A stretch of DNA of 64,000 bases from Candidatus Calescibacterium sp. (GTDB lineage: Bacteria > Calescibacteriota > Calescibacteriia > Calescibacteriales > Calescibacteriaceae), in NCBI GenBank assembly GCA_025060505.1, contig JANXBU010000002.1, positions 1 to 64,000 of the forward strand, in the 5' to 3' direction. A model generated the notes under the pieces. The model was not told the DNA's origin, made no database searches, and worked only from the letters and a program-made list of their open reading frames with translations. The position numbers and the translations under genes are program-made. Numbering within the stretch: the first letter of the stretch is position 1; every line of letters starts with the position of its first letter. Positions 788-35,307 of this stretch are shown piece by piece.

Positions 788-790
788 CTA

Positions 791-862
791 TCGGGGTGAC
801 CGGATTTGAACCGGCGACCTTTGGCCCCCCATGCCAATGCGCTACCTCTGCGCCACACCCCG
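791..862 (-). tRNA. tRNA-Pro (GGG)
   Basis: The minus strand folds as a 72-nt cloverleaf. The acceptor pairs CGGGGTG with CACCCCG, the D stem is GCGC/GCGC, the anticodon stem is TTGGC/GCCAA around the loop ATGGGGG (anticodon GGG), and the T arm is GCCGG-TTCAAAT-CCGGT. The discriminator is A and CCA is not encoded. trxA starts 3 nt downstream. Confidence 0.93.
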
Positions 863-872
863 AATATTCTTA

Positions 873-900
873 AATCTAAAAAAACATGTCGGAAATTCAA
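873..900 (-). promoter_or_regulatory. Promoter for tRNA-Pro and trxA
   Basis: The minus strand has TTGAAT (895-900), a 16-nt spacer and TAGATT (873-878), ending 10 nt before the tRNA 5' end. It overlaps the longest possible 5' end of the divergent UbiA-family gene, which is one reason to suspect that gene starts later. Confidence 0.5.
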
Positions 901-1737
901 AATTTTCTGATTTGTTCAGTATGTAAAATTATAAAGGTGCAGAAAATCTTATACTTCATCATACTCGCAAGACCGTACCAATGGCATAAAAACATATTCA
1001 TACTCGCCCCCATTTTTTTCGCTGGAAAAATATTCTCCGATAAAATATATAACCTGCTCCTTCTGTTTCTGAATTTTGTTACAGTTTCTTCAGCTGTATA
1101 CTCCATAAATGATATAATTGATTACCAAAGAGATAAATCGCATCCAACAAAGCAAAATAGACCAATTGCTTCCGGAAAAATAAGCAAGAAGGAAGCATTA
1201 ACTTTTTCATTCGTATTTCTCACTATTTCATTTATCCTTGCATACTATATAAATTCAATAATCTTCGTAGTACTGTATGTTTTTATAAACATAATCTACT
1301 CAGCTTTCATAAAGGATAAAAAACCACTTGATATCTTCTTTGTATCTTCTGGTTTTGTTATAAGAGTTCTAGCTGGAGCGCATATTTCCCAAATCATTCC
1401 GTCTTCCTGGTTAATCATAACAACATTCTTTCTGGCTGTCTTCCTCTCTACAATGAAAAGGGAAGCAGAACTACATACCAAAATCTATGAAAGAATAGGT
1501 CTGATCTCCGCAACACTTACAACAGTATCATATTCTCTTTACACTGTTCTAGAAAGGAAAGGAATGCTCTCTGCACTATCTGTTTTCCCTGTTTTCTACG
1601 GCATCATAAGGTATTACATAATAGCAGAAGAATCTGACGTGAAAGATCCTTCTATACTTGTATTTGATAGAGAGATAGTAATATCCTTCTTAACATGGTT
1701 TGCGCTGATTTTCTCAGATCTATATTTGAGAAGCTAA
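886..1737 (+). CDS. UbiA-family prenyltransferase (DPPR synthase-like)
   Basis: An integral membrane prenyltransferase with about eight hydrophobic segments. The first Asp-rich motif NDIIDYQRDKSHP followed by NRPIASG is diagnostic of UbiA enzymes. The ARPYQWHKN N-terminal motif and the KREAEL stretch resemble decaprenyl-phosphate phosphoribosyltransferases, which load ribose-phosphate onto a polyprenyl lipid for cell-surface arabinose/ribose chemistry. Assignment to that subfamily is inference; a quinone- or heme-type UbiA is less likely. The first 17 residues look unlike the family and overlap the tRNA-Pro promoter, so a GTG at 937 (VQKILYFIILARPY) may be the true start. The gene is monocistronic and divergent from tRNA-Pro. 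Confidence 0.85.
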   Translation: MSEIQNFLICSVCKIIKVQKILYFIILARPYQWHKNIFILAPIFFAGKIFSDKIYNLLLLFLNFVTVSSAVYSINDIIDYQRDKSHPTKQNRPIASGKISKKEALTFSFVFLTISFILAYYINSIIFVVLYVFINIIYSAFIKDKKPLDIFFVSSGFVIRVLAGAHISQIIPSSWLIITTFFLAVFLSTMKREAELHTKIYERIGLISATLTTVSYSLYTVLERKGMLSALSVFPVFYGIIRYYIIAEESDVKDPSILVFDREIVISFLTWFALIFSDLYLRS

Positions 1738-1889
1738 AAAATATGGATAATCACTTGAAACCTTATCACTTATAATCTCTGTTAAGATAACAAAACACCC
1801 AGCGATCTCTAAACTCTACTGATACTACTACCATACTGTAAAATAGCTGAGATATAATTTTTGACAAAACGCTTAACTACAATGTAAAT

Positions 1890-2318
1890 ATGAATCCACC
1901 GAAAACTCCATATCTTACCGTTGACGCAGTTATAGAATACGGAGACCAGATTATTCTGATTGAAAGAGGAAAGGAACCATACGGATACGCACTTCCTGGT
2001 GGATTTGTTGAAATCGGGGAAGATGTGAAATCTGCTGTCATAAGAGAAATAAAAGAAGAAACAAACTTAGATATAGATATAAAAGGAGTTCTTGGAATAT
2101 ACTCCGATCCAAAAAGAGATCCGCGCGGACACACCGTGACCGTTGTTTTTGTGTGCTCCGCTTCTACAAATCAAAAACCAATTTCAGGAGACGATGCTAA
2201 AAAAGTTATGCTATTTGACCTTTCAAATATACCAACAGAAAAACTCGTGTTTGATCATTCACAAATCATAATTGATTATACTGAGTGGAAAAAAAATAAA
2301 AAATTCTTCATAAGATGA
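1890..2318 (+). CDS. Nudix hydrolase, ADP-ribose pyrophosphatase-like
   Basis: A 142-residue single-domain Nudix protein. The Nudix box is complete: GG at residues 35-36, then E-x7-REIKEE-T, which binds the catalytic Mg ions. The later PKRDPRGHTVTVVF segment is typical of the ADP-ribose pyrophosphatase group, which hydrolyses ADP-ribose to AMP and ribose-5-phosphate; the exact substrate cannot be fixed from sequence. There is no Shine-Dalgarno. TACAAT ends 6 nt before the ATG, and a TATAAT occurs further upstream at 853-858 of the preceding kilobase. Confidence 0.88.
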   Translation: MNPPKTPYLTVDAVIEYGDQIILIERGKEPYGYALPGGFVEIGEDVKSAVIREIKEETNLDIDIKGVLGIYSDPKRDPRGHTVTVVFVCSASTNQKPISGDDAKKVMLFDLSNIPTEKLVFDHSQIIIDYTEWKKNKKFFIR

Positions 2319-2464
2319 ATTAAATGAAGAATCAAATGGTTTGCCCATAAATTCAGAAAAATTACCAACAAACTTATTAGAGCTCCTTAAAATTTTTCCT
2401 TTTCTATATAGACATGAAACGAAATTTTTTAGCAGAGCAATTAAAACATAGAGTACGGGAGAAT

Positions 2465-4081
2465 CTATAAGAATTTAAACTCCCCAGAGTATACTCTGAG
2501 ATCATTTGAAAGAGATGCTATCCTTCTTGTTTCCTCAAATATCTCGTTTACAGAATTCTGCACTTTTTCCGAAACCCTCGAAACAGAACTCACTTGAGAT
2601 ATAACTTCCGAGACAATCTTACTTTGTTCCTTTATCATATTGTTTATATTCTCAATAAAACCCATCTGAAGGTCGTATGTTTCCTGAATCTTTCTTAGCT
2701 CACCGCTTGCCTTTTCTGAAATATTCAAGCTTGTGTTTATTATCTTCATGGCCCTTTCTTGAACTTGAATCAGATTTCGCATATCCTCCTGAGCTTTATC
2801 TGCGGTCTTCTCTATTTCTTTCGCAGCTGTTGAAGTTTTTGCTGAAAGTTTCCCTACCTCCTCTGCAACAACCTTAAAACCTTTACCCTGCTCTCCAGCT
2901 CTTGCAGCTTCTATAGAAGCATTTATAGAAAGTATGTTTATCTGCTCCGCTATACTCTTTATAGAAGATGCTATAGAAGATATTCTCTTTGCAGACTCGC
3001 TAAAGTTGATTGTCGTAGCTGTGAGCTCGGAAAAAATTTCAGAAATATCTTTTACCACTAAGACAACCTGATTTATCGCTGATATACTCTCTGATATTAT
3101 TGATTTCGATGCATTGACCCTTTTTCCTACATCCTCGGAAACACCCTTAACTCGCAAAAATACAGATTCAAGATTTTTTGTCGTCGCGGAAGCTCTGTCT
3201 ATAGTGCTCATTTGTTCATCTACCATTCCCATTATATTCTCTCCAATGTTTATCAAGGAATTTGAAAGCTTATCGAGTTGTTCGGATGTTCCCACTATTC
3301 TTAACATTATAGAAGAAATCTTCTGAACAAAATTATTCAAATTCTTCTCAAGAGTTCCTATCTCATCATTTCCCAAATCAAGTTTTAGCTTCCTTGAAAG
3401 ATCTATAACTTTACCCGAGAACATAGAGGAAATATAATTTGATATCCCGATAATCGGAGAAGAAACGAATCTCTGTATTATTAAGAATGAAAATAATATG
3501 CTCAATGAAGAAAAAATAGATAAAACTATAGAGATTATAATTGCATTACTATTAGTTCTTCTAACATTAGAAATTCCTTGCTGAATAATATCTGTTATAG
3601 AGCTTACAATCATGTCTGATTCCGATTTTATACTTTCCGCTTTTGTGTTCAGAAGGTTTATCTCCTCTAAGGGTTCCAGTTCATTAAAATCAGTCAATAT
3701 TTTCTCCGCGTGCTGACGATATTCACTCCATTTTTCTCTAAGGTTTGATATATCTATTTTGCCCTCGATCATATCTTCTATATACGATATTCTCATATCA
3801 ACCTTATCAATAAGAACTCTTATCGTATCTTCGTAAGGCAGTATATCATTAGCGATAACCGATGATTTGAGATAAGAAAAAGATTCAGAAATATCATTTT
3901 TCAACAAAATTATCTCTGTCAAAAGTTGAAAATCATTTAGGTATATGTAGTCAAACCTTTTGTTCATAGAATTCATCGCGATCACAGAAAATACAATATA
4001 AGAGGCAAATATAACGAGACTGAAGATAGATGGAAAAAGAATTTTTTGAGATATACTCAGATTTTTTAGAAGACCAAACAT
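2465..4081 (-). CDS. Methyl-accepting chemotaxis protein
   Basis: A membrane chemoreceptor of 538 residues from the preferred start. There is one N-terminal membrane helix, a periplasmic sensor of about 150 residues (mostly helical, four-helix-bundle-like), a second membrane helix near 180-205, a HAMP domain, and a long cytoplasmic coiled coil. The conserved hairpin tip EQINILSINASIEAARAGEQGKG is the CheA/CheW contact region. An ATG 36 nt further upstream would overlap the preceding gene; the ATG at 4081 has AGGGGGGTG 9 nt upstream and is preferred. It lies 14 nt behind a solute-binding protein gene, so the two are probably one transcript and may sense together. No CheR-tethering C-terminal pentapeptide is seen. 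Confidence 0.93.
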   Translation of the reverse strand: MFGLLKNLSISQKILFPSIFSLVIFASYIVFSVIAMNSMNKRFDYIYLNDFQLLTEIILLKNDISESFSYLKSSVIANDILPYEDTIRVLIDKVDMRISYIEDMIEGKIDISNLREKWSEYRQHAEKILTDFNELEPLEEINLLNTKAESIKSESDMIVSSITDIIQQGISNVRRTNSNAIIISIVLSIFSSLSILFSFLIIQRFVSSPIIGISNYISSMFSGKVIDLSRKLKLDLGNDEIGTLEKNLNNFVQKISSIMLRIVGTSEQLDKLSNSLINIGENIMGMVDEQMSTIDRASATTKNLESVFLRVKGVSEDVGKRVNASKSIISESISAINQVVLVVKDISEIFSELTATTINFSESAKRISSIASSIKSIAEQINILSINASIEAARAGEQGKGFKVVAEEVGKLSAKTSTAAKEIEKTADKAQEDMRNLIQVQERAMKIINTSLNISEKASGELRKIQETYDLQMGFIENINNMIKEQSKIVSEVISQVSSVSRVSEKVQNSVNEIFEETRRIASLSNDLRVYSGEFKFL

Positions 4082-4095
4082 ACAAAAGCACCCCC

Positions 4096-5655
4096 CTAAT
4101 CTATAGTTACGTTCCACAAGATGTTATCCATATGCCCATTTATAACTATACCGGGAAGATTTACATTTTTTCTCATACCAACAGATAGCATCCTTTGGTA
4201 GGTAGATATTATATAAGCTTTTTCGTAGATCATCTTATCAACCTCTTTTAGTCTTCTTTCGTGTTCCTTTTCATCTGCCACAGCGAGTGCCCAAAAGAGT
4301 TTTTCATCGTACTCTTTTTCGTTCAGAAGAGAAAATGGACCCTGCGAGTGTAGGAATATAAAGTAATGAAAAGCTGCATCCTTTATGGGGTTGTCAACCA
4401 TAGATATAGCCATTTCTCCGTCCCAATCTGGTTTCCCTTTTGTCATCTTTGCTATGGGTATCATTTTATTCCATTCCGATCTTCCCACTTCTTTTATATC
4501 AAGTCTTACTCCTACAGCAGCTAAGTTTTGCTTTATCACTCTTGCAACAGGTGCAGCCACATCTGCAACAAGGGCTCGTAAAACTAATGGTTTATCTTTT
4601 GTAATTCCTTTTGATTCGAGAATTTGTTTGGATTTAGCAGGATTATATTCATAAGGTTTCAACTCATCGGCAGCAGAGCCGAGCTCACCGAATTTGCCCA
4701 AAGATGGAATTATTTTTCCGAAGCCGGAATCTCCTGCCCTCAATAGGGCGTTCTTGTCGACCGCATAGTTCAAGGCACGCCTCACCTCAACATCTGCAAG
4801 CACACCCTGATTCCTCATAACAACCTGATATCCTATATGCACAAGCTTCTGCATAACTTTGATATTCGGATCTCTCTTCAAGTCTATAACATCCTTCCCA
4901 AGCAAGTTTATAACTATATCAACACTGCCCTTTTTTAGAGAGTCCGCCCATAGTTTTTCAGGAATCATTTCAAAAATTAGCCTTTCATACTTCGGCCACC
5001 CCTTCTGCCAGTACATATCGTTCTTTACAAGCACTATTCTTCTACCCACCTCCCATGATTCAAACTTGAACGGACCAGTTCCAACTGGCCTTTTAGCGAA
5101 CTCGTCCAGCCCAACTTTCCTTATATACTTCGAAGGCATAACATCTGAAAACATATGAAGCCTGTATATAAGCATTCCGTCTGGGAAGTGAGTTTTTATC
5201 CTAAATGTGTAATCATCTATAACCTGAACCTCTTTTATTGAAGAAAGAATACCAGATGTAGGAGATTTTACATTCGGATCAAGATGTGTTTCTATTGTAA
5301 ACTTCACATCCTCTGCTGTGAGGGGATCACCATTGTGAAACTTCACACCTTTCCTCAACTTAAATTCAACAGTAAGATCATCTAACCTTTTCCAAGATTC
5401 CGCAAGCCAAGGCTTTGGATTTCCATCATAATCAAAAGCAATAAGCTTATCAAAGATATAATTTATGACAGCATATGAGTCAGGATCAAAAGCCCTGTAT
5501 GGAACTATCGCAGGTGGATCAGTCGAAAAATATACAACCCTCAAATCCTTTGAGTAAGCTGGAAAAACAGAAAGAAAGAAAGAAAGAAAGAAAAGTGAAA
5601 AACACATGAGTTGCCATCTTTTAAAAACTTGTTTATTCAGGCGATTTAGTACCAT
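4096..5655 (-). CDS. ABC-type solute-binding protein, family 5 (peptide/nickel type)
   Basis: A periplasmic binding protein of 519 residues of the SBP_bac_5 family. An N-terminal signal peptide (hydrophobic FFLSFFLSVFP, cleavage near AYS-KD) has no lipobox. The family segments KPWLAESWK, GVKFHNGDPLTAEDVKFT and PVGTGPFKFESWEVG are clear. No permease or ATPase gene adjoins; instead a chemoreceptor follows 14 nt downstream. It has a strong AGGAGGT, though 12 nt from the ATG, which is long. Codons for the signal peptide contain six TTCT tetranucleotides. The ligand is unknown: peptides, nickel complexes or sugars are all bound by this family. Confidence 0.92.
   Translation of the reverse strand: MVLNRLNKQVFKRWQLMCFSLFFLSFFLSVFPAYSKDLRVVYFSTDPPAIVPYRAFDPDSYAVINYIFDKLIAFDYDGNPKPWLAESWKRLDDLTVEFKLRKGVKFHNGDPLTAEDVKFTIETHLDPNVKSPTSGILSSIKEVQVIDDYTFRIKTHFPDGMLIYRLHMFSDVMPSKYIRKVGLDEFAKRPVGTGPFKFESWEVGRRIVLVKNDMYWQKGWPKYERLIFEMIPEKLWADSLKKGSVDIVINLLGKDVIDLKRDPNIKVMQKLVHIGYQVVMRNQGVLADVEVRRALNYAVDKNALLRAGDSGFGKIIPSLGKFGELGSAADELKPYEYNPAKSKQILESKGITKDKPLVLRALVADVAAPVARVIKQNLAAVGVRLDIKEVGRSEWNKMIPIAKMTKGKPDWDGEMAISMVDNPIKDAAFHYFIFLHSQGPFSLLNEKEYDEKLFWALAVADEKEHERRLKEVDKMIYEKAYIISTYQRMLSVGMRKNVNLPGIVINGHMDNILWNVTID
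5569..5593 (-). repeat. Tetranucleotide repeat (AGAA)6 in signal-peptide coding region
   Basis: Six uninterrupted AGAA units (TTCT on the coding strand) encode the hydrophobic core of the signal peptide of the solute-binding protein. Gain or loss of one unit would shift the frame, the classic architecture of phase-variable surface genes. It could equally be chance in an A/T-rich Phe/Ser/Leu-coding stretch. Confidence 0.75.
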
Positions 5656-5689
5656 CGTCTATCTTTACCTCCTCAGCTTATATATTGAT

Positions 5690-5741
5690 TTATCTTGCTT
5701 ATCTTGTTTATAGTATAATCATTTTTATATGATTTTGTCTG
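5690..5741 (-). promoter_or_regulatory. Promoter and possible operator upstream of the binding protein-chemoreceptor pair
   Basis: The minus strand has CAGACA (5736-5741), an 18-nt spacer and TATACT (5712-5717). Immediately downstream of the predicted start lie two direct copies of an 8-mer (TTATCTTG on the plus strand, 5690-5697 and 5699-5706), about one helical turn apart. That position is where a repressor could bind. The operator role is inference. Confidence 0.4.
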
Positions 5742-5770
5742 AAAAAGAGGCTTAAAATCGGGGATTTTTT

Positions 5771-6853
5771 CTAGTTCTTAGATAGTGGTATATCCTCAAC
5801 TATTCTGATTTTAACTCCATCGTAAATCTTATCTGTGTATGGAGATATAATACGAGTTACACCTTCTGGAAGCTCTACTGAAACATAGTTCGAATACACA
5901 TCCAATATTTTCACAGGTGTTCTCTTTGCAACCCCATCTGAAACAGCAAAAACATATTCTCCTTCTCTTGTTATCACCAAAGCTTCATAAGGCAAAAGAA
6001 TTCCTGATTTTTTTTCAACAGTAACCCGAGCAATTCCATAAAGATTTGATTGAACAAAATCTCTAAGTAAAACTTTTATATCAAAGCTTCTTCTATCAAT
6101 AGAAGGTGTAATTGAGTCAACAATACCTTCAATCCTTTTGTTAATTGAAGAGAATTCCACAGCTATTTTCATTCCTTTCCTCAAAAAAATGATATCTTGT
6201 TCAGCTACTCTACCTAAAAAGTATGTTCTTCTGCTTTGAAGAACGAACATAGGTGTTTGAGGAAATACGAACGATCCAACATCAACAAGCTTATTTACAA
6301 TAGATCCATCAAACGGAGCTCTGACTTTCGTCTCAAGCAAATCGATGCGAGCTTTTTCAAGAAGTTCAAGAGAAGATTTATATCGTGCATCAAGTGAATC
6401 AAAATTAGATTTAGCTGAATCAAACTCAGCTTGTGATATTGCATTGTTCTTTATAAGATCTTGTGCTCTTGAGAAATTCGCCCTCGCAAGCTCAAGCTGA
6501 GATTTTATACTCTCCAACTCAGCTTTCAATCTGTTATATGTATTTAGATAATCTGTCTCATCTATTTCAGCAATTATCTGACCAGATTTTACATTGGAAC
6601 CAACATCAACATATATCTTTTTGATTCTTCCAGAAACCTTAGGCTGAATGTTTACCTCCTGCTCGGGTATGGTTGTACCAAAAATATCAATTTTTATTTC
6701 ACCGGATTTTCCATTCAGGTTCGTTATATCTATAACCCTAACTCCAACAGCATCTACTTTACCTGAGAAAATATTCTTGTTAGCCGGATTATTCTTAGAG
6801 TTCGAACAGGCTAATGTGAGTCCCAAAACCAGTATTGAAAAAATTCTAATCAT
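5771..6853 (-). CDS. HlyD/RND-type periplasmic adaptor lipoprotein
   Basis: A 360-residue membrane-fusion protein of tripartite efflux systems. It begins MIRIFSILVLGLTLACSNSK, a lipoprotein signal with lipobox LTLAC. The lipoyl half-motif VNIQPKVSGRIKKIYVDVGSNVKSGQ and the second half KVRAPFDGSIVNKLVDVGSFV flank a helical hairpin (about residues 95-165); beta-barrel segments follow. The reading frame stays open through the adjacent tRNA, but the ATG at 6853, 9 nt after the tRNA-Thr 3' end, is the only sensible start and lacks a Shine-Dalgarno. No inner-membrane pump gene adjoins, so its partner must be elsewhere. Confidence 0.9.
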   Translation of the reverse strand: MIRIFSILVLGLTLACSNSKNNPANKNIFSGKVDAVGVRVIDITNLNGKSGEIKIDIFGTTIPEQEVNIQPKVSGRIKKIYVDVGSNVKSGQIIAEIDETDYLNTYNRLKAELESIKSQLELARANFSRAQDLIKNNAISQAEFDSAKSNFDSLDARYKSSLELLEKARIDLLETKVRAPFDGSIVNKLVDVGSFVFPQTPMFVLQSRRTYFLGRVAEQDIIFLRKGMKIAVEFSSINKRIEGIVDSITPSIDRRSFDIKVLLRDFVQSNLYGIARVTVEKKSGILLPYEALVITREGEYVFAVSDGVAKRTPVKILDVYSNYVSVELPEGVTRIISPYTDKIYDGVKIRIVEDIPLSKN

Positions 6854-6862
6854 TCTAACAAG

Positions 6863-6935
6863 AGCCGATGGCGGGAGTTGAACCCGCGACCTGCACATTA
6901 CGAGTGTGCCGCTCTACCAGCTGAGCTACATCGGC
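6863..6935 (-). tRNA. tRNA-Thr (CGT)
   Basis: The minus strand gives a 73-nt cloverleaf. The acceptor pairs GCCGATG with CATCGGC, the D stem is GCTC/GAGC, the anticodon stem is GCACA/TGTGC around CTCGTAA (anticodon CGT), and the T arm is GCGGG-TTCAACT-CCCGC. The discriminator is U and CCA is not encoded. The adaptor-lipoprotein gene starts 9 nt downstream on the same strand. Confidence 0.95.
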
Positions 6936-6997
6936 TAATCCTAAAATTTTACATATAAAGAGCTATCAAATAAACAAAATCAAAAAGTTACTCAAGA

Positions 6998-7838
6998 CTA
7001 CTTTATCTTTTGTAGAACCATTATACCATTCCAAAATGTTATGTGCTCATTTTGGGCAGTCTTCCGCTGAAATATTATTTCGTATCTTCTTCCCGTTTTT
7101 CTTATAAAATCATAAGTCGCTTTGGAAACATCTTCAAGATTAGTATCATCTACCAAGATAATTCCACCTTCTTTCAAATATGGATCAGCAAGCTCAAGAG
7201 ATTTTAATTGATTCTCATAGCTGTGCTCTCCATCATAATAGTAAAAACCTATAAAATCTTTGTGAACTCTTCTGAAGTAATCAACATAATCCATCTCAAA
7301 AAAACTGTGATGATTCGTACCGTAAATTTGGAAAAATTTCGAAAAAATATCTCTTGGATGTCCAAAAAGCGTATCACTGAACTGTGAAAAATTATCTACT
7401 CCTATGCATATTTTATTTGGATTTCCTACCATTCCGGAAATAAGAGAAAAACCACACCAGACCCCTATGTTCAAGAAAACCTCATCTTTGTCAAGATCAG
7501 AAAACTATCCTATTTATTATTGCTCCTACAGAAAAAGAAGCCATTCGTGGCATAAGAGCTATTTTTTCTATTCTTTCTCTGTATATTTCGTAGTCTAAAA
7601 AGTACGTGTTCAAAAATTCAAGAGCTATTATTTTCTTTCTCTTTTCATCTGTAAGAATAGGAATATCCAAGGGAAAATAGTCGGAATCTATCGTAAGAGA
7701 TACGCCATGTCTTTCCAATTTCAAAACAATATCACTTACACTTTCATAGGTTATATAATCATTGGGTTGTATAAACCTAAAATTTATACTGTTGAGAAAA
7801 TCCCTGATCTCATCTACTCTGCTTGGCATAATATACAT
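6998..7838 (-). pseudogene. Class I SAM-dependent methyltransferase, frameshifted
   Basis: Two abutting minus-strand frames look like one gene. The first (7838 to 7497) encodes 113 residues ending GAIINRIVF and a stop. In the next frame, SDLDKDEVFLNIGVWCGFS continues directly into a glycine-rich SAM-binding region, then CIGVDNFSQF, YYDGEHSYENQ and GGIILVDDTN, all typical of methyltransferases that modify sugars or small molecules. The join needs one base skipped near a TTTTC run at about 7497-7503. No plausible separate start exists for the second part other than a TTG at 7474. It could be a true pseudogene, a sequencing or assembly error, or a +1 recoding site. Confidence 0.7.
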
Positions 7839-7903
7839 TTTAAGCAGAAATTAGAATTAAAAACTGACTATTACATAAACCTTTCAGTTCATTATTTTAT
7901 ACT

Positions 7904-8806
7904 TTACCTTTCCCGTGCTCTTGGATCAAACATAGCATAAAGGATCTCAGAAATTATATTCATTACCACCAAAACAACAGTAAAAATAACAGTCAAAGCC
8001 ATAACAACTGGATAATCTCTATCTATAACAGAAAGAACAAAGTATCTGCCCATTCCGGGTATAGCGAATATTGTTTCTATTATAAAAGAACCAGTTATAA
8101 GAAACGTGAAAATCATACCAGCAACACTGAAAACAGATGATAGCGAAGCCGAAACTATGTGTTTGAAAAATCTAAAACCATATACACCCTTTGATTTTGC
8201 AAACATCACAAACTGTTCTTTCAAAGTTCTTTCGACAGATGTCTTTGTGAGTTTTGCTATATATATTGTTGGACCGAAAGAAAGACATACAATTGGCAGA
8301 ACATAGTAGTTCCATCCTTCAAGCAAGGCGGGCGGAAGAAAATTAAAATGAAGAGAGAAAACTACTATAAGAACACTCGCGAAAACAAAAGATGGAAGAG
8401 ATATTCCCAAAGAAAAAATGCTCTCAAAAATCCGAGATCTTCTTAAACCCGCAACAAAGCCTATTATCACTCCCAAAAAAATAGATAATACAAAACTAAT
8501 AACACCCAACCTCAGAGATACTGGAAAAACATCCCCTATTATATCAGTTGCAGTCCTATTCAAGAACTTATAAGACGGACCAAAATCACCCCTCAAGATT
8601 CCAGATAAATACAATATATACTGTTGAATCAACGGCTTATCAAGATGATATTTTTTTTCTATATTTAGCTTTATCTCCTCCGGTAATTTTTTTTCCTTGT
8701 CAAAAGGACCACCCGGAAGAAGCCTAAGCATAAAGAATGTAGCAGTTATAACGAGGAAAACAACAACCAATCCCCCAAAAAATCTCTTCAAGAAGAAAGA
8801 AATCAT
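7904..8806 (-). CDS. ABC transporter permease, DppB/OppB type
   Basis: A 300-residue inner-membrane permease with six membrane helices. The N-terminal FLKRFFGGLVVVFLVITATFFMLRLLPGGPF is the DppB signature, and a cytoplasmic EAA-like loop (AKSKGVYGFRFFKHIVSASL) would contact the ATPase. The C-terminal FVLSVIDRDYPVVMALTV matches the family. The partner DppC and the ATPases are not in the window; the nearest binding-protein gene is 2.2 kb away with a tRNA and two genes between. A second DppB-like gene lies at 13.5 kb. Confidence 0.9.
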   Translation of the reverse strand: MISFFLKRFFGGLVVVFLVITATFFMLRLLPGGPFDKEKKLPEEIKLNIEKKYHLDKPLIQQYILYLSGILRGDFGPSYKFLNRTATDIIGDVFPVSLRLGVISFVLSIFLGVIIGFVAGLRRSRIFESIFSLGISLPSFVFASVLIVVFSLHFNFLPPALLEGWNYYVLPIVCLSFGPTIYIAKLTKTSVERTLKEQFVMFAKSKGVYGFRFFKHIVSASLSSVFSVAGMIFTFLITGSFIIETIFAIPGMGRYFVLSVIDRDYPVVMALTVIFTVVLVVMNIISEILYAMFDPRARER

Positions 8807-8920
8807 CAGAGTTTTATTTTAATCTCCAAATTTAAACGATTACAACACTGAAAATTCTCTTCTCTCACGAAACGAACTCTGATGGCAAAAACATCATATC
8901 AAAAAAATCATTGAACTATA

Positions 8921-9628
8921 TCAGAAAATTCTGATTTCATTTATGGTCCCAGATGAAAGCAATCTTATATAAAGATCAGCTACTATAACGGAAATAAGAC
9001 TCACCCAGAAGAAAAAACCGTGGTTTTTGTTAAGAGAACTTACAAATTTCCATATCTTGTATCTAGCATTATTTTGAGAATAGTTATCAATTCTTCCACC
9101 AGAAAGATGTCTGAAAGAGTGGCACGAGAGAACATAGAGAGTAAGAAAAACACTATCTGCCAAGATTAGAATTGATCCAAGCCCCATCCCAAAACTTCCT
9201 TCCCAAATAAAGCTCTTTATTGCGTGAAACCAGTGAATCGGAACAAATAAAATCGCAAAGAAAAGAAAATACCTGTGAAGATTTAGCAAAATATACGGAA
9301 AAGCAGATTCTCCTTTGTAGTTTCTTTTTGGCTCTCTTACCATACAAGCTGGTGGATCGGCAAAAACTGACCTGTAATAAACTCTTCTGCAAAAGTAGCA
9401 AGTTATTCTGAAACCAGCCGGAACCCACATCGTAAACATAGCAGGAGAAATCCAGGCAGTCTCAATCGGAAATGGATAAAGTGGCGAAAGATATGGTCCC
9501 CACTGAAAAAACTTACCTTCAAGAGCTCTCACTATCGAGTAAATTATTGCAAGAACAAAAACAGAAGCTGACACCAAAGTTTCCACCCACCAACTATCGG
9601 TACGAGACGTAGAAAATGTCCTTTCCAT
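8921..9628 (-). CDS. Membrane protein resembling the anchor of Sdh1-type succinate dehydrogenase
   Basis: A 235-residue polytopic protein with about five membrane helices. The segments YLSPLYPFP, WVPAGFRITCYFCRRVYYRS, DPPACMVREP, NLHRYFLF and LSCHSFRHLSGG match, from memory, a conserved membrane protein encoded in sdh operons of Actinobacteria and Acidobacteria (Rv0249c-like). Several conserved His (in NLHRY, HWFH, CHSFRH) could ligate heme. Here it stands alone, without flavoprotein or iron-sulfur subunits. The assignment is by remembered similarity, not a search. Confidence 0.6.
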   Translation of the reverse strand: MERTFSTSRTDSWWVETLVSASVFVLAIIYSIVRALEGKFFQWGPYLSPLYPFPIETAWISPAMFTMWVPAGFRITCYFCRRVYYRSVFADPPACMVREPKRNYKGESAFPYILLNLHRYFLFFAILFVPIHWFHAIKSFIWEGSFGMGLGSILILADSVFLTLYVLSCHSFRHLSGGRIDNYSQNNARYKIWKFVSSLNKNHGFFFWVSLISVIVADLYIRLLSSGTINEIRIF

Positions 9629-9793
9629 AATCCAGAATATTCATAACATTATATCCAATTATAATTAAATCAGCTTTTTTACCGGCCGTTATCATTCAAA
9701 ATCAGCAAGACCTTCTCAAAGAAAATACTACAACAGAACGGAAAATTTCTAAATAAAAATCTATTATTTTATCTTGTAGCTACAGATATAAAG

Positions 9794-10201: not shown

Positions 10202-10238
10202 ATTTTTCCAAAAATCCTGAGCTGAAAGCAATGAAACA

Positions 10239-22491: not shown

Positions 22492-22492
22492 A

Positions 22493-24100: not shown

Positions 24101-24122
24101 AATTTATAATTATTTTATCTTT

Positions 24123-25745: not shown

Positions 25746-25787
25746 TTTTTGAGAAATATATCACAAATATTACAAAGTTTATATAAA

Positions 25788-28493: not shown

Positions 28494-28584
28494 AGTAAAT
28501 CAATTTTAATTTATCAGATCAATTTTTTATTTTCCAAACTCAAGCATCTATATTTCACAAATTGGATCTTTGAAAAAAGAGTCT

Positions 28585-28622
28585 CAACAAAACAAATTAC
28601 GAAGTTCAACAAAATAAATTAC
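28585..28622. repeat. Direct repeat upstream of the glycoside hydrolase gene
   Basis: Two 16-nt copies, CAACAAAACAAATTAC (28585-28600) and CAACAAAATAAATTAC (28607-28622), differ at one base and are two helical turns apart (22-nt period). They sit 92-130 bp upstream of the hydrolase start. This suggests a regulator-binding pair, but no regulator gene adjoins. Confidence 0.45.
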
Positions 28623-28691
28623 AATAAACTCAAGACTATAAATATATCCTTCGTACAGATATATAGCTTAAAATCGAACCTTTACAAAAAA

Positions 28692-29351
28692 CTATGCATC
28701 AACAATCAGAATCATAAATGTATTGCTCATTGCATGAAATATAACAGCAGGTAATATACTCCCATATCTTTCTCTAATAAATCCGAAAACCAATCCGGGA
28801 AAGAAAGTAAGAAACCTTATTATTGTTATATCTTGTGGCAGATGTATAAGCATAAAAAGTATTGAAGAGATTAAAAGTCCCCAACCAAATCTTGTTCCAA
28901 GTAATACAAAACTTTTACCAAAAAATAAATTCATTCGTCCTTGAATAAATCCTCTGAAGAAAATTTCTTCTGGTATAGCGACACCGAAGAGAAAAATCAA
29001 AAACCACTTGATTGCATCTAAATCTGGGAACTTTGGAGATATATTCACTACATATGGAATTTTTATATCTCCTAAAATAAAAAAGAGAAGATAAATTGCC
29101 AAAAAAACAATAAATGAGACAATAAAAACAAAAATATTATCCTTCAATTTGAATTTCAGCCCAAGAACATCATTTGATCTTTCAATTATAGATGGAATGA
29201 GCAAAAAAAACACAAGAGCCACCGCACCAGAAAGATCCCACCTCCCGAAAATCCTCAATAAAAAAAGTGATATAATAGAAATCAACCATATAATCAGCGG
29301 TATTATAACGCAAGAGAAAAAGTTTCCAGCTCTACTCTGATTTTGGTTCAT
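28692..29351 (-). CDS. CPBP-family intramembrane (CAAX-type) protease
   Basis: A 219-residue polytopic protein with about six helices. All three ABI/CPBP motifs are visible: PEEIFFRG (Glu-Glu...Arg), FMLIH, and IFHAMSN (His...Asn), forming a metal-dependent intramembrane active site. The family processes prenylated or hydrophobic peptides, or modulates envelope signalling; the target is unknown. It lies upstream of the glycoside hydrolase on the same strand but 198 bp away. Confidence 0.88.
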   Translation of the reverse strand: MNQNQSRAGNFFSCVIIPLIIWLISIISLFLLRIFGRWDLSGAVALVFFLLIPSIIERSNDVLGLKFKLKDNIFVFIVSFIVFLAIYLLFFILGDIKIPYVVNISPKFPDLDAIKWFLIFLFGVAIPEEIFFRGFIQGRMNLFFGKSFVLLGTRFGWGLLISSILFMLIHLPQDITIIRFLTFFPGLVFGFIRERYGSILPAVIFHAMSNTFMILIVDA

Positions 29352-29402
29352 CTTTAAGAATTATCTGTATGAGTATTACTTGTTCTATGTTTGCAGATCT
29401 GA

Positions 29403-29852
29403 TTACTTTGCGATTTTTTCGAGAACCTCTAGTATCTGTTTGTGATGATTATTTACATCCACTTTCTCAAATACATAAGCTATTTTTCCTTCCGGAGACA
29501 CAATAAATGTTTTTCTTTGAGCGTTTCCAAAAATACCCTTCACACCAAATTTATTTATTATTTCTCCCTTTTCATCTGCAACAAGTTCATATTCAAGTTT
29601 GTATTTTTCCTTAAATTTTTTTTGCTTTTCTAGTGTATCTTTGCTCACTCCTATTATCTGAACATTGAACTTATTTTTTATTTCTGAGTAACCATCACGA
29701 ACACTGCATACCTCCTTTGTACATCCTGGTGTAAAGGCTTTCGGGTAGAAGAATATAACAGACCATCTTCCCTTCAGAGATTCTGAGCTTATTGTCTGAT
29801 CATTTGTTGCTTTGCCGCTGAACTCCGGAACATTATCTCCAACTTTTGCCAT
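29403..29852 (-). CDS. Thioredoxin-dependent peroxiredoxin, Bcp/PrxQ type
   Basis: A 149-residue peroxiredoxin reducing hydroperoxides in the cytoplasm. The peroxidatic Cys44 (FTPGCTKE) and resolving Cys49 five residues on are the intramolecular pair of the PrxQ class; the thioredoxin at 0.5 kb is a plausible reductant. The open frame extends 46 codons further upstream, but that stretch is unlike the family and would cross into the divergent gene, so the ATG at 29852 (MAKVGDNVPEF) is chosen. Only 55 bp separate it from the divergent NrdJ-like gene. Confidence 0.93.
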   Translation of the reverse strand: MAKVGDNVPEFSGKATNDQTISSESLKGRWSVIFFYPKAFTPGCTKEVCSVRDGYSEIKNKFNVQIIGVSKDTLEKQKKFKEKYKLEYELVADEKGEIINKFGVKGIFGNAQRKTFIVSPEGKIAYVFEKVDVNNHHKQILEVLEKIAK

Positions 29853-29907
29853 AATACAAAATTTGTTAAAATATACAAAATGAAAATATTTTTTAAAATT
29901 TTTTCGT

Positions 29908-30516
29908 ATGGGAATGAAAGATTTTGAAAGACCGTTTTCAATGAGAGGTATAACGACAAAGATAAAAACACCGCATGGTTCAATGTTCATAACAATAAAC
30001 TTTTACGAAGGACAGATGAAAGAAGTTTTTGTTGTTGTTTCAAAGCCGGGTTCCGAGCTCAGAGCTTGTGCTGAAGCTTTAGGAAGAGTTATTTCACTTG
30101 CGCTGCAAAAAGGTCTACCACCCGAAGATATACTCGAAACTCTTGAAAACATAAAAACAGAAGAAGTTGCATGGAACAATTTCAATGGACATAGCTTCTC
30201 CGTATCGTCTATTCCAGATGGAATTTCAAAAGCCATAAAATTCGCAACATCTCTCAAATTTACTCCGGATTCGCTTCAAATAGGAAACGAAAAAACAAGC
30301 AAAAATGAAAACGAAATTCAAGAAAAAAAAAACTTAGCAAAAAAAAATGAAACAAATAACAAAAAAAATATCGAAGCAAAATCCAAGAATTCAGATAATA
30401 ATTTAAACCAAAAAGATAAAAAGATGGAGATATGTCCAAACTGTCATAGTTCATCACTTGTTTTTCAGGAAGGTTGTTTTATATGCATGAACTGTGGATA
30501 CACTAAGTGTACCTGA
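29908..30516 (+). CDS. Free-standing C-terminal module of B12-dependent ribonucleotide reductase (TSCPD plus zinc ribbon)
   Basis: A 202-residue protein. Residues 8-110 match the TSCPD domain (RPFSMRGITTKIKTPHGSMF, VVVSKPGSELRACAEALGRVISLALQKGL). A Lys/Asn-rich linker (130-170) leads to CPNC...CxxC and the tail CMNCGYTKCT. In class II ribonucleotide reductase NrdJ this order forms the C-terminus, and the final CxxxxC/CxxC pair shuttles electrons to the active site. Here it stands alone, so the enzyme is probably split, with the catalytic barrel elsewhere; a stand-alone regulatory role is the alternative. Confidence 0.8.
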   Translation: MGMKDFERPFSMRGITTKIKTPHGSMFITINFYEGQMKEVFVVVSKPGSELRACAEALGRVISLALQKGLPPEDILETLENIKTEEVAWNNFNGHSFSVSSIPDGISKAIKFATSLKFTPDSLQIGNEKTSKNENEIQEKKNLAKKNETNNKKNIEAKSKNSDNNLNQKDKKMEICPNCHSSSLVFQEGCFICMNCGYTKCT

Positions 30517-30522
30517 TAAGCA

Positions 30523-31032
30523 ATGATTGAAGCCAAAAGATTTTCTTTATCATTTCTATTTTTTTGTATAGTTATATGCTTCAGCTTCCCTTTCCTTGAT
30601 GTCAAATGTGCCGGTACAAAAACCACAAGCTTTTCAGGATTTGAACTTGCAAAGGGGCTTGAAATAAATAAAACATTCTTGGATTTTTACAACAAAACAA
30701 AAATAAAAAATCCCACAAAGCCAGAAAGAGAAATAAAGGAAAGTGATAAGATAAAACTCAGAGTTGTTATGTGGTCAGCGATTTCTTTTGCTATTTTAGG
30801 AGGTATAATTTCATTCTTCAGTAGATTTTTTCTGAGCTCTTTATTTGGATTTCTATGTACTCTTGGATTGCTAATATTTTGGTATAATATAAGACAAATT
30901 ACGAATTACGGAGAGGAAGCACTTTTGGAGGTACGCTTTGCTCCTGCATTCTGGATAGCCCTGATTCTAAGTATTACTGCTTCTTTGCTGAGCTTATATT
31001 TTTCCCTTAAGCGTAGCCGAGTTCTTTCATAA
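30523..31032 (+). CDS. Membrane protein of unknown function
   Basis: I do not recognise this 169-residue protein. It has an N-terminal signal peptide or anchor (residues 8-30), a hydrophilic segment, then three hydrophobic helices (about 80-160) and a short basic tail. It starts 6 nt after the NrdJ-like gene on the same strand, so they are probably co-transcribed. Its 3' end overlaps the convergent acyl-CoA dehydrogenase by 26 bp. Confidence 0.6.
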   Translation: MIEAKRFSLSFLFFCIVICFSFPFLDVKCAGTKTTSFSGFELAKGLEINKTFLDFYNKTKIKNPTKPEREIKESDKIKLRVVMWSAISFAILGGIISFFSRFFLSSLFGFLCTLGLLIFWYNIRQITNYGEEALLEVRFAPAFWIALILSITASLLSLYFSLKRSRVLS

Positions 31033-32182
31033 GTCTTTTGAATATAACTCTTCTTTGTATTTCATTTGTTCCTTCGCCAATTTCGCCAAGTTTAACATCT
31101 CTGTAAAGCCTTTCTACTTTCGTACCTTTTATATATCCAAGACCTCCAAATATCTGCAGAGCATCTGATGCGTTTTTAGTAGCCCGCTCTGCTATAAAAA
31201 GCTTTGCACAAGATGCCATAGTCCCTGCGTCCTCCATACCTCTGTCATGCATCCAAGCTGACTTCAGTACAATCGCTCTTCCCATATCAACAGTAATCTG
31301 CATATCAACTATTTTGAAGTTCACATCTTCATAAGCTGCAATTGGTTTGCCAAAAGCAATCCGTTCCTTTGAGTATCTTTTACTTTCTTCAAGACAAGCC
31401 GAGGCTATCCCCAGAGAAAAAACAGCAAGTCCAACTCTACCTATATCGAAAACTTTCATAACCTGTTTGAACCCGCTTCCCTCAGCTCCACCTACAACAT
31501 TTTCTGCAGGAACCTTAGCTCTTTCAAGATAAATATCTGAAGTAGGAGAACCCCTCACTCCGAGCTTATCGTATGGATTTCCAATCTGCATACCTTCCGT
31601 ATCTCTTTCCACAATAAACGCTGTGATTCCCTCATGCTTTTTGCTCTGACCGTTTTTCTGAACCCTTGCAAGAACAATAAAAACATCTGCAATAGGTCCA
31701 TTTGTAGCATACATCTTTGTTCCTGTAAGGTAATAATATTTACCCTCTCTTTCTGCCCTTGTTTTGAGTGCTCCAAGGTCTGATCCACAACTTGGTTCTG
31801 TTGCACATAGACATCCTATTTTCTCACCTGAACACAAAGATGGGAGATATTTACTTTTCTGCTCCTCTGTTCCAAACATGTTTATGAAGTTCGCGCACAA
31901 AAGAGTATGAGCTAACGCCGAAAGATAAGTAGATGCACAAGCCTCTGCGAGTTTCTCAGATAGAATAAAATAGTTCACCCAGCTCATACCTCCTCCACCA
32001 TATTTCTGAGGAATCGGAGCACCTAAAAAACCATACTCTCCAAGCATTTTTAGATTTTCTATTATGTCCTCCTTAGTTGGATTTCTATCAAGTTTCTCAG
32101 CTCTCGGCTCTATCTTTTCCTTGCAAAATCTCTCAAACTCCTTTACAAGTATTTTTTCTTCTTCAGATAAGCTAAAATCCAT
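31007..32182 (-). CDS. Acyl-CoA dehydrogenase
   Basis: A 391-residue flavoenzyme that forms the 2,3-enoyl-CoA. The segments CATEPSCGSDLGALKT and YATNGPIADVFIVLARV (FAD/acyl binding), ERIAFGKPIAAYEDVNFKI and FGGLGYIKGTKVERLYRDVK are classical. The catalytic Glu is in GEGTNEIQRRV near the C-terminus, as in short/medium-chain enzymes. With methylmalonyl-CoA mutase it supports acyl-CoA oxidation; the chain length is not predictable. A more divergent paralogue is at 49.7 kb. Confidence 0.95.
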   Translation of the reverse strand: MDFSLSEEEKILVKEFERFCKEKIEPRAEKLDRNPTKEDIIENLKMLGEYGFLGAPIPQKYGGGGMSWVNYFILSEKLAEACASTYLSALAHTLLCANFINMFGTEEQKSKYLPSLCSGEKIGCLCATEPSCGSDLGALKTRAEREGKYYYLTGTKMYATNGPIADVFIVLARVQKNGQSKKHEGITAFIVERDTEGMQIGNPYDKLGVRGSPTSDIYLERAKVPAENVVGGAEGSGFKQVMKVFDIGRVGLAVFSLGIASACLEESKRYSKERIAFGKPIAAYEDVNFKIVDMQITVDMGRAIVLKSAWMHDRGMEDAGTMASCAKLFIAERATKNASDALQIFGGLGYIKGTKVERLYRDVKLGEIGEGTNEIQRRVIFKRLMKELGYA

Positions 32183-32236
32183 ATCTAAAAATTTTTCTTT
32201 CCTGCTTGAAATTCATTATTTTTTTCAGAAATATTT

Positions 32237-32809
32237 TCACTCTTTATTTTTCAGAAGTTTATTCCCCTCCTCTATAACATACCTGTAAAAAACACAACCT
32301 AAAAATACACCAAACACGTTCATCCCTATATCCTTCCACTCAAAATACCTTCTGGGCAAATCAAAAAATTTCTGATACTGAAAAAATAGCTGAATAAGCT
32401 CATCTACAAAACCTATTATTGAACCCAATACAAAAGCGAAAATATATTTTGATATACTCTCCCTCTTGCTTGCAACTATAAGTAGATACGCTAAAAATCC
32501 ATATTGCATAAAGTGTACTCTTTCGGCAGGTATCTCAAGAGTGATCAAAATAAAAACGCCAGAAAAAGACAGAAACAAAAGCCAAAATGCAGTCCTTGGA
32601 TTCTTCAAATATTTTACGGAATTGACAGCTATAAAAGCTATCAAGGTGATAATTAACGTTGATACAAATACACCATAGTATTGCTTAAATATTTTTCTCA
32701 GAAAATCAACTACATAAGGTGCAAAAGGTATTGTAGAGTATACAACAATAACATAAAGAACAACCAATATTGGAGATATTGTTTTGTTTTTTTTCTCAAC
32801 AAGATTCAT
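32237..32809 (-). CDS. VanZ-like membrane protein
   Basis: A 190-residue protein with five hydrophobic segments. The segment GFVDELIQLFF...DLPRRYFEWKDIGMNVFGVFLG matches the VanZ-like pattern (DE-x-Q then D...N-x-G near the C-terminus). VanZ confers low teicoplanin resistance in enterococci, but most relatives have no known role. A TTG 30 nt upstream could also start it; the ATG at 32809 is preferred. Neither has a Shine-Dalgarno. It is divergent from rpmH. Confidence 0.8.
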   Translation of the reverse strand: MNLVEKKNKTISPILVVLYVIVVYSTIPFAPYVVDFLRKIFKQYYGVFVSTLIITLIAFIAVNSVKYLKNPRTAFWLLFLSFSGVFILITLEIPAERVHFMQYGFLAYLLIVASKRESISKYIFAFVLGSIIGFVDELIQLFFQYQKFFDLPRRYFEWKDIGMNVFGVFLGCVFYRYVIEEGNKLLKNKE

Positions 32810-32887
32810 AATCAAAATTTTCGTATTTTCTAAAATCAAAAAGTTTAAAACTTTAATTTTTTGTTTAATTTAGGAGGTTTTTTTGCT

Positions 32888-33055
32888 ATGAAAAGAACAT
32901 ACCAACCACATAAGAAAAGAAGAGCAAGAAACTATGGATTTCTGAGCAGAATGTCTACAAAATCTGGAAGAAAAATCATAAACAGGAGAAGAAGAAAGGG
33001 AAGAAAAAGACTAGCTCCAGGAATATACAATAAATTAAGATTTGTTCCAACATAA
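32888..33055 (+). CDS. rpmH: Ribosomal protein L34
   Basis: A 55-residue L34 of the 50S subunit: [22 protein letters not shown] and the Arg/Lys-rich core are unmistakable. It is about ten residues longer than usual (44-46) because of the tail [12 protein letters not shown] strong TTAGGAGG lies upstream. An in-frame start 27 nt earlier would include the Shine-Dalgarno and is rejected. Usually rnpA follows rpmH; here a gap of 179 bp and rsmA follow instead. Confidence 0.96.
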
Positions 33056-33234
33056 AAGGATAATCATCGATATAATACATTCATTCCTACAAAAATCACT
33101 TTATTGAAGTTATAGAACTTTGTCTTGCTTCCAGATGTGATGTTTTTATCCATTACTCCATATTTTCAATAGAACAACAAAAAATACTTCTATTTCAGAG
33201 AAATAGAGCTTAAAACATTTACAAATTTTAATGT

Positions 33235-34050
33235 ATGAAAAAAGATCTGGTACTGAAAAATTTTTTGATAGAAAACAAAGAAACAACTGTAAGAAAATCT
33301 CTTGGACAAATAAAGCTTGTAAAAAAAGAATCACTTGAAAAAATAGCATCGTTTGCTGAGAGATCAGATAATGTTGTAGAAGTCGGATCCGGAGAAGGGA
33401 ACTTAACAGAACTTTTGAGCGATAAATCAAATATGGTAATATGTTTCGAAATTGACAGAAGATTAAAAGAAAAAATTTTAAACAAAATAAGCTTTGGCAT
33501 ACTTTTGATAAGGGATTTTCTCAACTTTCCTCTAAATAAATTGAAAGAAGAAACAGAAAACTTTAATTCGGAAATATTTGTAAAAGGAGATATTGAGAGA
33601 ATAAAAAAAGTACTGGCTGAGACAGATAAATTCAAAATAGTCGCGAACATACCATACTACATCTCCTCAAGGTTTATACACAAAATCATAATTGAAGATT
33701 TTCCTCTACTCAAAAGTATTCACATACTTGTACAGAAGGAGTTTGCTCATAAGCTCTGTGCCAAACCCGGATCATATAACTACAGCGCAATATCGGCCAT
33801 AGCAAACCTTTTCTTTGAAACAAAAATAGAGTTTGATGTACCAAGATTTTATTTTAGACCAGTTCCCAAAGTTCATTCCTCATTTATATCACTTAAACCA
33901 AAACAAGTGAAACCAGATATATTAAATAGAAGAAACGAACTCATAGATTTCACTTACAAGTTATTCAAAAGGAGAAAAAAGGTATTTGGAAACAAAAGAG
34001 TATTTCAATTATCACCAGAAGAAATAGCAGATTTTTTCTTTTCCGATTAA
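33235..34050 (+). CDS. rsmA: 16S rRNA dimethyladenosine transferase
   Basis: A 271-residue KsgA/RsmA methylating the two adjacent adenosines near the 3' end of 16S rRNA. The SAM motif VVEVGSGEGNLTELL and catalytic motif IV NIPYYISS are intact. The N-terminal KSLGQNFL signature reads KSLGQIKL, a slight divergence. The C-terminal small domain is short. No Shine-Dalgarno is visible. It follows rpmH and precedes cheY on the same strand. Confidence 0.92.
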   Translation: MKKDLVLKNFLIENKETTVRKSLGQIKLVKKESLEKIASFAERSDNVVEVGSGEGNLTELLSDKSNMVICFEIDRRLKEKILNKISFGILLIRDFLNFPLNKLKEETENFNSEIFVKGDIERIKKVLAETDKFKIVANIPYYISSRFIHKIIIEDFPLLKSIHILVQKEFAHKLCAKPGSYNYSAISAIANLFFETKIEFDVPRFYFRPVPKVHSSFISLKPKQVKPDILNRRNELIDFTYKLFKRRKKVFGNKRVFQLSPEEIADFFFSD

Positions 34051-34078
34051 AATAATTTATTGTATTAACTTCTTAGTG

Positions 34079-34447
34079 ATGAGAATTCTGATAGTAGATG
34101 ATCACGAGCCTATGAGAAAGATAATCAAGAATATATTGAGACAGATTGGACTTGAAGATATGGATGAAGCAATTGATGGACGAGATGCCGTGAAAAAAAT
34201 GAAAGAGAAAAACTTTGACATCGTTTTGCTTGACTGGAACATGCCAGGTATGACTGGTCTTGATGTGCTGAAAATAATTAAAAGTGACCAAAATTTAAAA
34301 AATATTCCTGTTATAATGGTAACAGCAGAATCTTCGAAAGAAAAAATAATTGAGGCAGTAAATTTTGGGGTAACAGATTATATAGTGAAACCATTCACAG
34401 CAGAAGTTCTTAAAAAGAAAATAGAAGAGGTGTCAAAGAAAAAATAG
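34079..34447 (+). CDS. cheY: Chemotaxis response regulator, CheY-like receiver
   Basis: A 122-residue single receiver domain. The acidic pair in IVDDHEP, the phosphoacceptor in LLDWNMPGMTG (Asp56-57 region), VTAES (Thr switch) and the invariant Lys in VKPFTAE are all present, in CheY order and without an output domain. It would bind the flagellar switch after phosphorylation by CheA. A GTG one codon earlier is an alternative start. It fits the flagellin and chemoreceptor in this window. Confidence 0.9.
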   Translation: MRILIVDDHEPMRKIIKNILRQIGLEDMDEAIDGRDAVKKMKEKNFDIVLLDWNMPGMTGLDVLKIIKSDQNLKNIPVIMVTAESSKEKIIEAVNFGVTDYIVKPFTAEVLKKKIEEVSKKK

Positions 34448-34502
34448 AACTAAGAACAGAAAGCAAAACAGACTCATAATTCCGTAATTCCATTTTTGAA
34501 TT

Positions 34503-34532
34503 TTGAGAAGCGAAGAAGTGGAGTCTTATAAT
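34503..34532 (+). promoter_or_regulatory. Promoter for tRNA-Leu and bamD
   Basis: TTGAGA (34503-34508), an 18-nt spacer and a perfect TATAAT (34527-34532) end 10 nt before the tRNA 5' end. No second promoter can fit between the tRNA and bamD, so this one should serve both. Confidence 0.7.
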
Positions 34533-34542
34533 ATAGTCTATA

Positions 34543-34626
34543 GCCGAGGTGGCGGAACTGGCAGACGCGTCGGACTTAGGATCCGATGGGGATTACCCCG
34601 TGCGGGTTCAACTCCCGCCCTCGGCA
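34543..34626 (+). tRNA. tRNA-Leu (TAG)
   Basis: An 84-nt tRNA with a long variable arm, typical of Leu. The acceptor pairs GCCGAGG with CCTCGGC, the anticodon stem is TCGGA/TCCGA around CTTAGGA (anticodon TAG), and the T arm is GCGGG-TTCAACT-CCCGC. The discriminator is A and CCA is not encoded. bamD begins 9 nt later. Confidence 0.95.
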
Positions 34627-34635
34627 CGAAGCAAA

Positions 34636-35307
34636 TTGAAAAAAACTACAATAGCAATTATTTCATCTCTACTTCTGATAAAACTTACACACTGCTCCCA
34701 TTCCGAACCACCAAACACTCCAGAGGAACTCTATGCAGAAGCAATGAAAAAAACAGAAGGTGGAATATTCACAGCAGACCTTGAAACCGCGGAAGAGTAT
34801 TTCAGGAAAATAATTGAACTATTTCCGACATCAAAGTATGTTCCAAAAGCAAATTTCGGTATAGCCTATGTAAAAATGAAAAAAGGAAACTACGCAGAGG
34901 CCGGTCCTCTTTTTGAAGTCTTCTTCCAAAGATATAGATCACACCCACAAGCACCAGATGCACTCTATCTGGCCATAAAATGCTATCTTGAATTCGTTGA
35001 TACACCAGACAGAGACATAACATATGCTGTAAAGGTAAGGGAACTCTCCTCTATCTTTATCAAAAATTTCCCCGAAAACGACAAAATAAAAGAAGTCCAG
35101 AACATAAAACAAAGAATGCTTGAAATAATTGCACAACACAACCTCGAAATAGCAGAATTCTATGCAAGGAGGAAACTCTTTGAACCATCGATAGAAAGAA
35201 TAAACGAAATACTAAAAGACGAAGAACTGAGCCAAACAAAATTCAGAAGATTAGCAGAAGAGCTCAAAATAAGAATACAAAAGCAGAGACAAGAGATGAA
35301 TATGTAG
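34636..35307 (+). CDS. bamD: Outer-membrane assembly lipoprotein BamD-like
   Basis: A 223-residue TPR lipoprotein of the BAM outer-membrane protein assembly complex. The TPR repeats AEEYFRKIIELFPTSKYVPKA and FFQRYRSHPQAPDALYLAIKCYL and the motif DTPDRDITY are BamD hallmarks. The frame is open back through the tRNA, but the only sensible start is the TTG at 34636, which gives a lipoprotein signal (LKKTTIAIISSLLL, Cys near residue 20, lipobox LTHC). It is 9 nt after the tRNA 3' end and has no Shine-Dalgarno. Confidence 0.9.
   Translation: MKKTTIAIISSLLLIKLTHCSHSEPPNTPEELYAEAMKKTEGGIFTADLETAEEYFRKIIELFPTSKYVPKANFGIAYVKMKKGNYAEAGPLFEVFFQRYRSHPQAPDALYLAIKCYLEFVDTPDRDITYAVKVRELSSIFIKNFPENDKIKEVQNIKQRMLEIIAQHNLEIAEFYARRKLFEPSIERINEILKDEELSQTKFRRLAEELKIRIQKQRQEMNM

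Follow-up and report, generated by a model that had tools for sequence, protein, structure and literature searches.

Among bacteria, tRNA-mRNA operons like tRNA-Trp-secE-nusG or the E. coli thrU-tyrU-glyT-thrT-tufB unit occur sporadically, and their protein genes are led by Shine-Dalgarno (SD) sequences. In the tRNA punctuation of mitochondria and apicoplasts, mRNAs are released when the tRNAs are excised; a tRNA flanking an ORF marks the end of a message, and the messages are near-leaderless. Leaderless transcriptomes are documented for Deinococcus-Thermus, Actinobacteria and Aquificae (PMC3160421, PMC12340547), one mark of a leaderless gene being a -10 box beside the start codon (PMC3160421). 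Finally, a study of Propionibacterium acnes (PMC3848588) describes a bacterium without an obvious tRNase Z, in which RNA-seq mapped the tRNA 3′ cut either to the C74-C75 bond or a few nucleotides downstream.

Here we describe an arrangement, in a family of uncultured bacteria that includes inhabitants of hot springs, of which mitochondrial punctuation, the sporadic tRNA-mRNA operons and leaderless genes each cover a part. It is like the organellar device in that a tRNA flanking an ORF would mark the end of a near-leaderless message, but the genome is bacterial, each tRNA would stand at the head of a promoter-driven unit of its own, the spacing has a mode of 9-10 nt, and no canonical RNase Z was found. 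Like the bacterial operons, it would join a tRNA and a downstream protein gene in one transcript, and tRNA-Trp-secE is itself among the units; unlike them, it takes in some 60% of tRNA genes and favors a particular short spacing. The -10 box beside the start codon is shared with the leaderless transcriptomes (PMC3160421, PMC12340547), except that the messages there are primary transcripts, whereas here some would come from tRNA processing. With P. acnes the likeness extends to the lack of an obvious tRNase Z, the encoding of CCA by about half of tRNAs, the many apparently leaderless mRNAs and the proposed site of the cut; the tRNA genes there are reported to be mostly transcribed individually, and the section consulted describes no ORF abutment (PMC3848588). 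Our literature search, with most subscription journals outside its reach, returned no report of this combination at such scale and spacing.

Three tRNA-ORF junctions in the window

The window, the whole 64,000-nt stretch of Candidatus Calescibacterium sp. DNA that was analyzed, holds exactly three tRNAs by ARAGORN and Rfam. As the initial annotation had it, and as the tRNA calls and ORF positions agree, each is directly upstream of a same-strand ORF, encoding thioredoxin (trxA) in the first case and a lipoprotein in the other two, HlyD-type behind tRNA-Thr and BamD/YfiO behind tRNA-Leu. The features are:

458..781, minus strand: trxA (thioredoxin), the second ATG taken as start (kept in relatives)
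782..790, minus strand: spacer TAGATGAAG, 9 nt, tRNA-Pro to the conserved trxA start (sequence and relatives' starts)
791..862, minus strand: tRNA-Pro(ggg), CCA not encoded, next bases TAG (ARAGORN, Rfam)
873..878, minus strand: candidate -10 box TAGATT, weak, 4/6 matches, its end 10 nt upstream of tRNA-Pro (sequence; below the consensus scan)
5771..6853, minus strand: HlyD/CusB-type lipoprotein gene
6854..6862, minus strand: spacer CTTGTTAGA, 9 nt, tRNA-Thr to the HlyD-type gene (sequence)
6863..6935, minus strand: tRNA-Thr(cgt), CCA not encoded, next bases CTT (ARAGORN, Rfam)
6946..6951, minus strand: candidate -10 box TAAAAT, its end 10 nt upstream of tRNA-Thr (sequence; below the two-hexamer scan)
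34503..34532, plus strand: predicted promoter TTGAGA-18-TATAAT, the end of its -10 box 10 nt upstream of tRNA-Leu (consensus scan, 11/12 matches)
34543..34626, plus strand: tRNA-Leu(tag), CCA not encoded, next bases CGA (ARAGORN, Rfam)
34627..34635, plus strand: spacer CGAAGCAAA, 9 nt, tRNA-Leu to bamD (sequence)
34636..35307, plus strand: BamD/YfiO-type lipoprotein gene, TTG start

Counted from the discriminator, the spacers are thus 9 nt each, once the trxA start is corrected. The initial annotation had placed trxA 3 nt past tRNA-Pro, at a first ATG (spacer TAG, then ATGAAG) that is missing in 4/4 relatives; because the conserved start is the ATG at 781-779, the gap is 9 nt. The 9-nt distances it gave for the HlyD-type gene and for bamD hold. 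So does its claim that the gaps leave no room for an SD or a promoter: they contain no SD-like sequence or terminator, and neither of these, nor a second promoter, would fit. This is the architecture of tRNA-punctuated transcripts, with the ORF adjoining the tRNA on the same strand.

Of the promoters proposed for the three window tRNAs, that of tRNA-Leu alone passes the two-hexamer consensus scan. By positional enrichment of TANNNT, -10-like boxes peak 9-12 nt upstream of tRNAs; a de novo motif search of the upstream regions settled on T-rich tracts and was replaced by fixed TANNNT/TATAAT counts. It was judged unlikely that the ORF has a promoter of its own within the tRNA or the spacer, since the 9-nt spacer is too short and the tRNA has no -10 box at leaderless distance. 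The position of the promoter upstream of the tRNA supports a single primary transcript that would carry both tRNA and ORF.

Spacing across the genome and its relatives

The window belongs to a 2.28-Mb metagenome-assembled genome (MAG), G000, with 115 contigs and 46 tRNAs. Together with its relatives G001 to G004 it makes up a set of five MAGs of estimated completeness 82-86%, of which G002 and G003, each from another genus, entered the spacing survey alongside G000; for G003 the survey comprises 38/45 tRNAs, those among the matches listed, and these enter all 128-tRNA totals. A tRNA was scored as abutting if a same-strand ORF of at least 60 codons started no more than 20 nt after it. On this rule 26/46 tRNAs abut an ORF in G000, 28/44 in G002 and 24/38 in G003 (among the matches listed), so that about 60% of tRNA genes abut a protein gene and about 40% do not. 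The gap to the ORF start runs from 6 to 20 nt in the three genomes, and its mode is 9-10 nt. Summed over the three, 78/128 tRNAs are abutting, against 2/128 on the tRNAs' 5′ side (p=3e-28, among the matches listed); among 16 other families, used as an outgroup control, the count is 3/30. In protein-gene controls drawn from 593 kb of G000, 61/432 stops are followed by an ORF start within 20 nt, and at gaps of 7-12 nt the comparison is 22/46 tRNAs to 10/432 stops (p=6e-18), which is more than chance and bears out the earlier remark that three out of three was striking. The tRNA-ORF architecture is genuine, extends across the family and is far from random. The co-transcription of tRNA and mRNA that the initial annotation predicted is supported on sequence grounds, and its reading survives a survey of all tRNA-CDS gaps in the genome and these relatives, where most tRNAs turn out to have such a neighbor.

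Two of its other statements need qualifying. The lack of an encoded CCA is correct for the three window tRNAs, but CCA is fully encoded in 53/128 family tRNAs (among the matches listed); spacing is independent of encoded CCA. To name envelope and redox genes as those coupled to tRNA levels was too narrow, for the ORFs abutting G000 tRNAs also encode a PfkB-type kinase, a proteasome-family (HslV-like) protein, SecE, GAPDH, Band-7, MreB, LapA-type and CoA-binding proteins, an M50 peptidase, a class-I release factor, a branched-chain polyamine synthase-like protein, Prs, FIST, ferritin, a DEAD helicase and DnaX. After tRNA-Arg(tct) (L015, G000:C19:42740) and tRNA-Val(gac) (L024, G000:C37:2961), an open frame 8-10 nt on begins with ATA or ATT, possibly a non-canonical start codon at the usual spacing.

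Most tRNA-ORF pairs recur in all three genera, their homology beginning close to the predicted start, and spacer length is better conserved than spacer sequence: lengths are often equal, as for the tRNA-Val (9/9/9), tRNA-Cys (9/9/9) and tRNA-Asp (12/12/12) spacers, and the sequences differ. Behind tRNA-Lys(ctt), G000 has GAPDH at 10 nt, and G002 and G003 have an 84-85-aa ORF at 9-10 nt, which in G003 is followed by GAPDH; the first gene has been switched and the spacing kept. In the window, adjacency of tRNA-Pro and trxA is kept in 5/5 genomes, with a gap of 14 nt in G003; a tRNA-Leu precedes bamD in 5/5 genomes, 9 nt away in G000 only, the relatives having gaps of about 31 to 60 nt; and the tRNA-Thr-HlyD adjacency, compared in G001 to G003, is kept in G002 and absent in G001 and G003. 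The bamD isoacceptor itself is swapped, being tRNA-Leu(cag) in three relatives (L243, L244, L246) and tRNA-Leu(tag) in G000 and G002. After tRNA-Thr(tgt), a 56-codon ORF (L008:1585-1752) starts 11 nt on, before the gene that abuts the tRNA in G002 and G003; it is possible that this is a new small protein in the tRNA-proximal place.

How ordinary genes start

The initial annotation had also stressed the missing SD. At the genes in question this is correct, an SD preceding 0/26 tRNA-abutting starts in G000, 1/28 in G002 and 0/24 in G003 (among the matches listed), but as a distinguishing mark it fails, since absence is the rule in the lineage. GGAG, GAGG or AGGA stands upstream of 19% of same-strand first starts and 12% of unit-first starts, compared with 15% for internal start codons; an SD-like motif is found in 26% of tight same-strand pairs. 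Motif frequency so near the internal-start background means that the SD is little used, while the 16S rRNA end still reads CACCTCCTTT. Moreover, TANNNT peaks 6-7 nt before the ATG of G000 unit-first genes (0.12-0.13 vs 0.04 background; the peak is weaker in relatives), so that, at population level, ordinary start codons have a -10 hexamer at the spacing of leaderless genes. T occupies position -1 in 63% of 126 unit-first genes (G000). Since ordinary genes are likewise near SD background and show the leaderless-spaced -10 box, the missing SD is a lineage trait, not special to tRNA-linked genes, and the lineage appears, from these sequence signals, to have a leaderless-type transcriptome.

Maturation of the tRNA 3′ end and the competing readings

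The initial annotation had RNase Z cutting right after the discriminator, and this part of its proposal is not supported. No match above the curated cut-off was obtained in the five genomes (MAGs, 82-86% complete), and C74 is conserved. The best match, a metallo-beta-lactamase (MBL)-fold protein of about 260 aa present in 5/5 genomes, reaches 36-50 bits where the cut-off is 293, and also resembles cAMP phosphodiesterase class II and PhnP; this diverged protein could still be an RNase Z. RNase E/G, RNase PH and PNPase are present in 5/5 genomes, as are two PolyA_pol/CCA-type proteins per genome (L232, L237 and homologues), possibly separate CC- and A-adding nucleotidyltransferases. Loss of RNase P, considered because the tRNA leaders are very short, is ruled out by a class A RNase P RNA in 5/5 genomes. 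As for the 3′ end itself, C74 is found in 123/128 family tRNAs (G000, G002 and G003; among the matches listed), the window tRNA-Pro being one of the five exceptions. Where a tRNA without encoded CCA is processed by RNase Z after the discriminator, the nucleotides that follow the discriminator are expected to be free; the first of them is C in 70/75 such tRNAs (among the matches listed), compared with 4/10 in the outgroups, which suggests that C74 is retained during 3′ maturation. Together with the want of an RNase Z above cut-off and with the cut mapped in P. acnes (PMC3848588), this leads us to favor cleavage that falls either behind C74 or within the AU-rich spacer, rather than RNase Z cleavage at the discriminator.

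The best fit, which we hold with moderate confidence on the strength of genome sequence, is that tRNA-headed transcription units are cut to near-leaderless mRNAs by a route other than canonical RNase Z. The tRNA genes would serve as 5′ leaders of protein operons: RNA polymerase would start a few nucleotides upstream of the tRNA and read through into the ORF, whose start codon most often lies 9-10 nt past the discriminator. RNase P would trim the 5′ side of the tRNA; an endonuclease other than canonical RNase Z, either RNase E/G in the AU-rich spacer or another enzyme after C74, would separate tRNA from mRNA; and the nucleotidyltransferases would complete the CCA. The freed message, with a leader of about nine nucleotides or less, would be translated without an SD, along the (near-)leaderless route that is apparently common in the lineage. 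Against this stand the roughly 40% of tRNAs that are non-abutting and the spacing shifts at trxA (14 nt in G003) and bamD (31 to about 60 nt). Moreover, the 9-10-nt mode counts against a strictly leaderless message, for which gaps near 0-3 nt would be expected.

Three other readings have to be set against this one. An RNase Z cut directly after the discriminator, leaving the whole 9-nt spacer as leader, agrees with the geometry, and the MBL-fold protein of weak RNase Z similarity occurs in every genome; with scores so far below cut-off, the matches of that protein to other families, and C74 conserved although it would then be part of the mRNA, we consider this reading unlikely. It is also quite improbable, judging from sequence, that the tRNA-mRNA is translated uncut, with the tRNA fold some 10 nt upstream in the place of the SD duplex and tRNA release competing with translation. 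The preferred 9-10-nt spacing regardless of encoded CCA, and the better conservation of spacer length than of sequence, speak for it, but one transcript must then yield both products, and near-leaderless messages seem normal in the lineage. Plain compaction, in which tRNA-first operons are tight and the spacing is the minimum separating tRNA folding from the start codon, would account for the floor of ~6-7 nt, as steric limits predict, and for the range of 6 to 20 nt. Protein neighbors are packed otherwise, however, with few stops at 7-12 nt (10/432) and same-strand gaps of at least 60 nt in 153/273 cases, and the 9-10 mode is kept across genera and after the first-gene change; we give compaction very little credence.

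Returning to tRNA-headed units cut by a non-canonical route: because about 60% of tRNA genes precede a protein gene at 6-20 nt, the proteins behind them are probably made from messages cut off a tRNA, as in mitochondria. The fuller claim of genome-wide tRNA punctuation, in which most tRNAs would be operon leaders, a length-selected 9-10-nt spacer would set the mRNA start, the cut would fall at or after C74 without RNase Z, and essential messages would be near-leaderless, we put forward tentatively, as slightly more doubtful than not. If true, an organellar tRNA-excision device would operate genome-wide in free-living bacteria, combined with leaderless translation. These bacteria would offer a system where tRNA maturation sets mRNA 5′ ends and would point to a way of maturing tRNA 3′ ends that keeps C74 and does without canonical RNase Z, and the expression of secE, mreB, dnaX, prs and others would be tied to tRNA supply.
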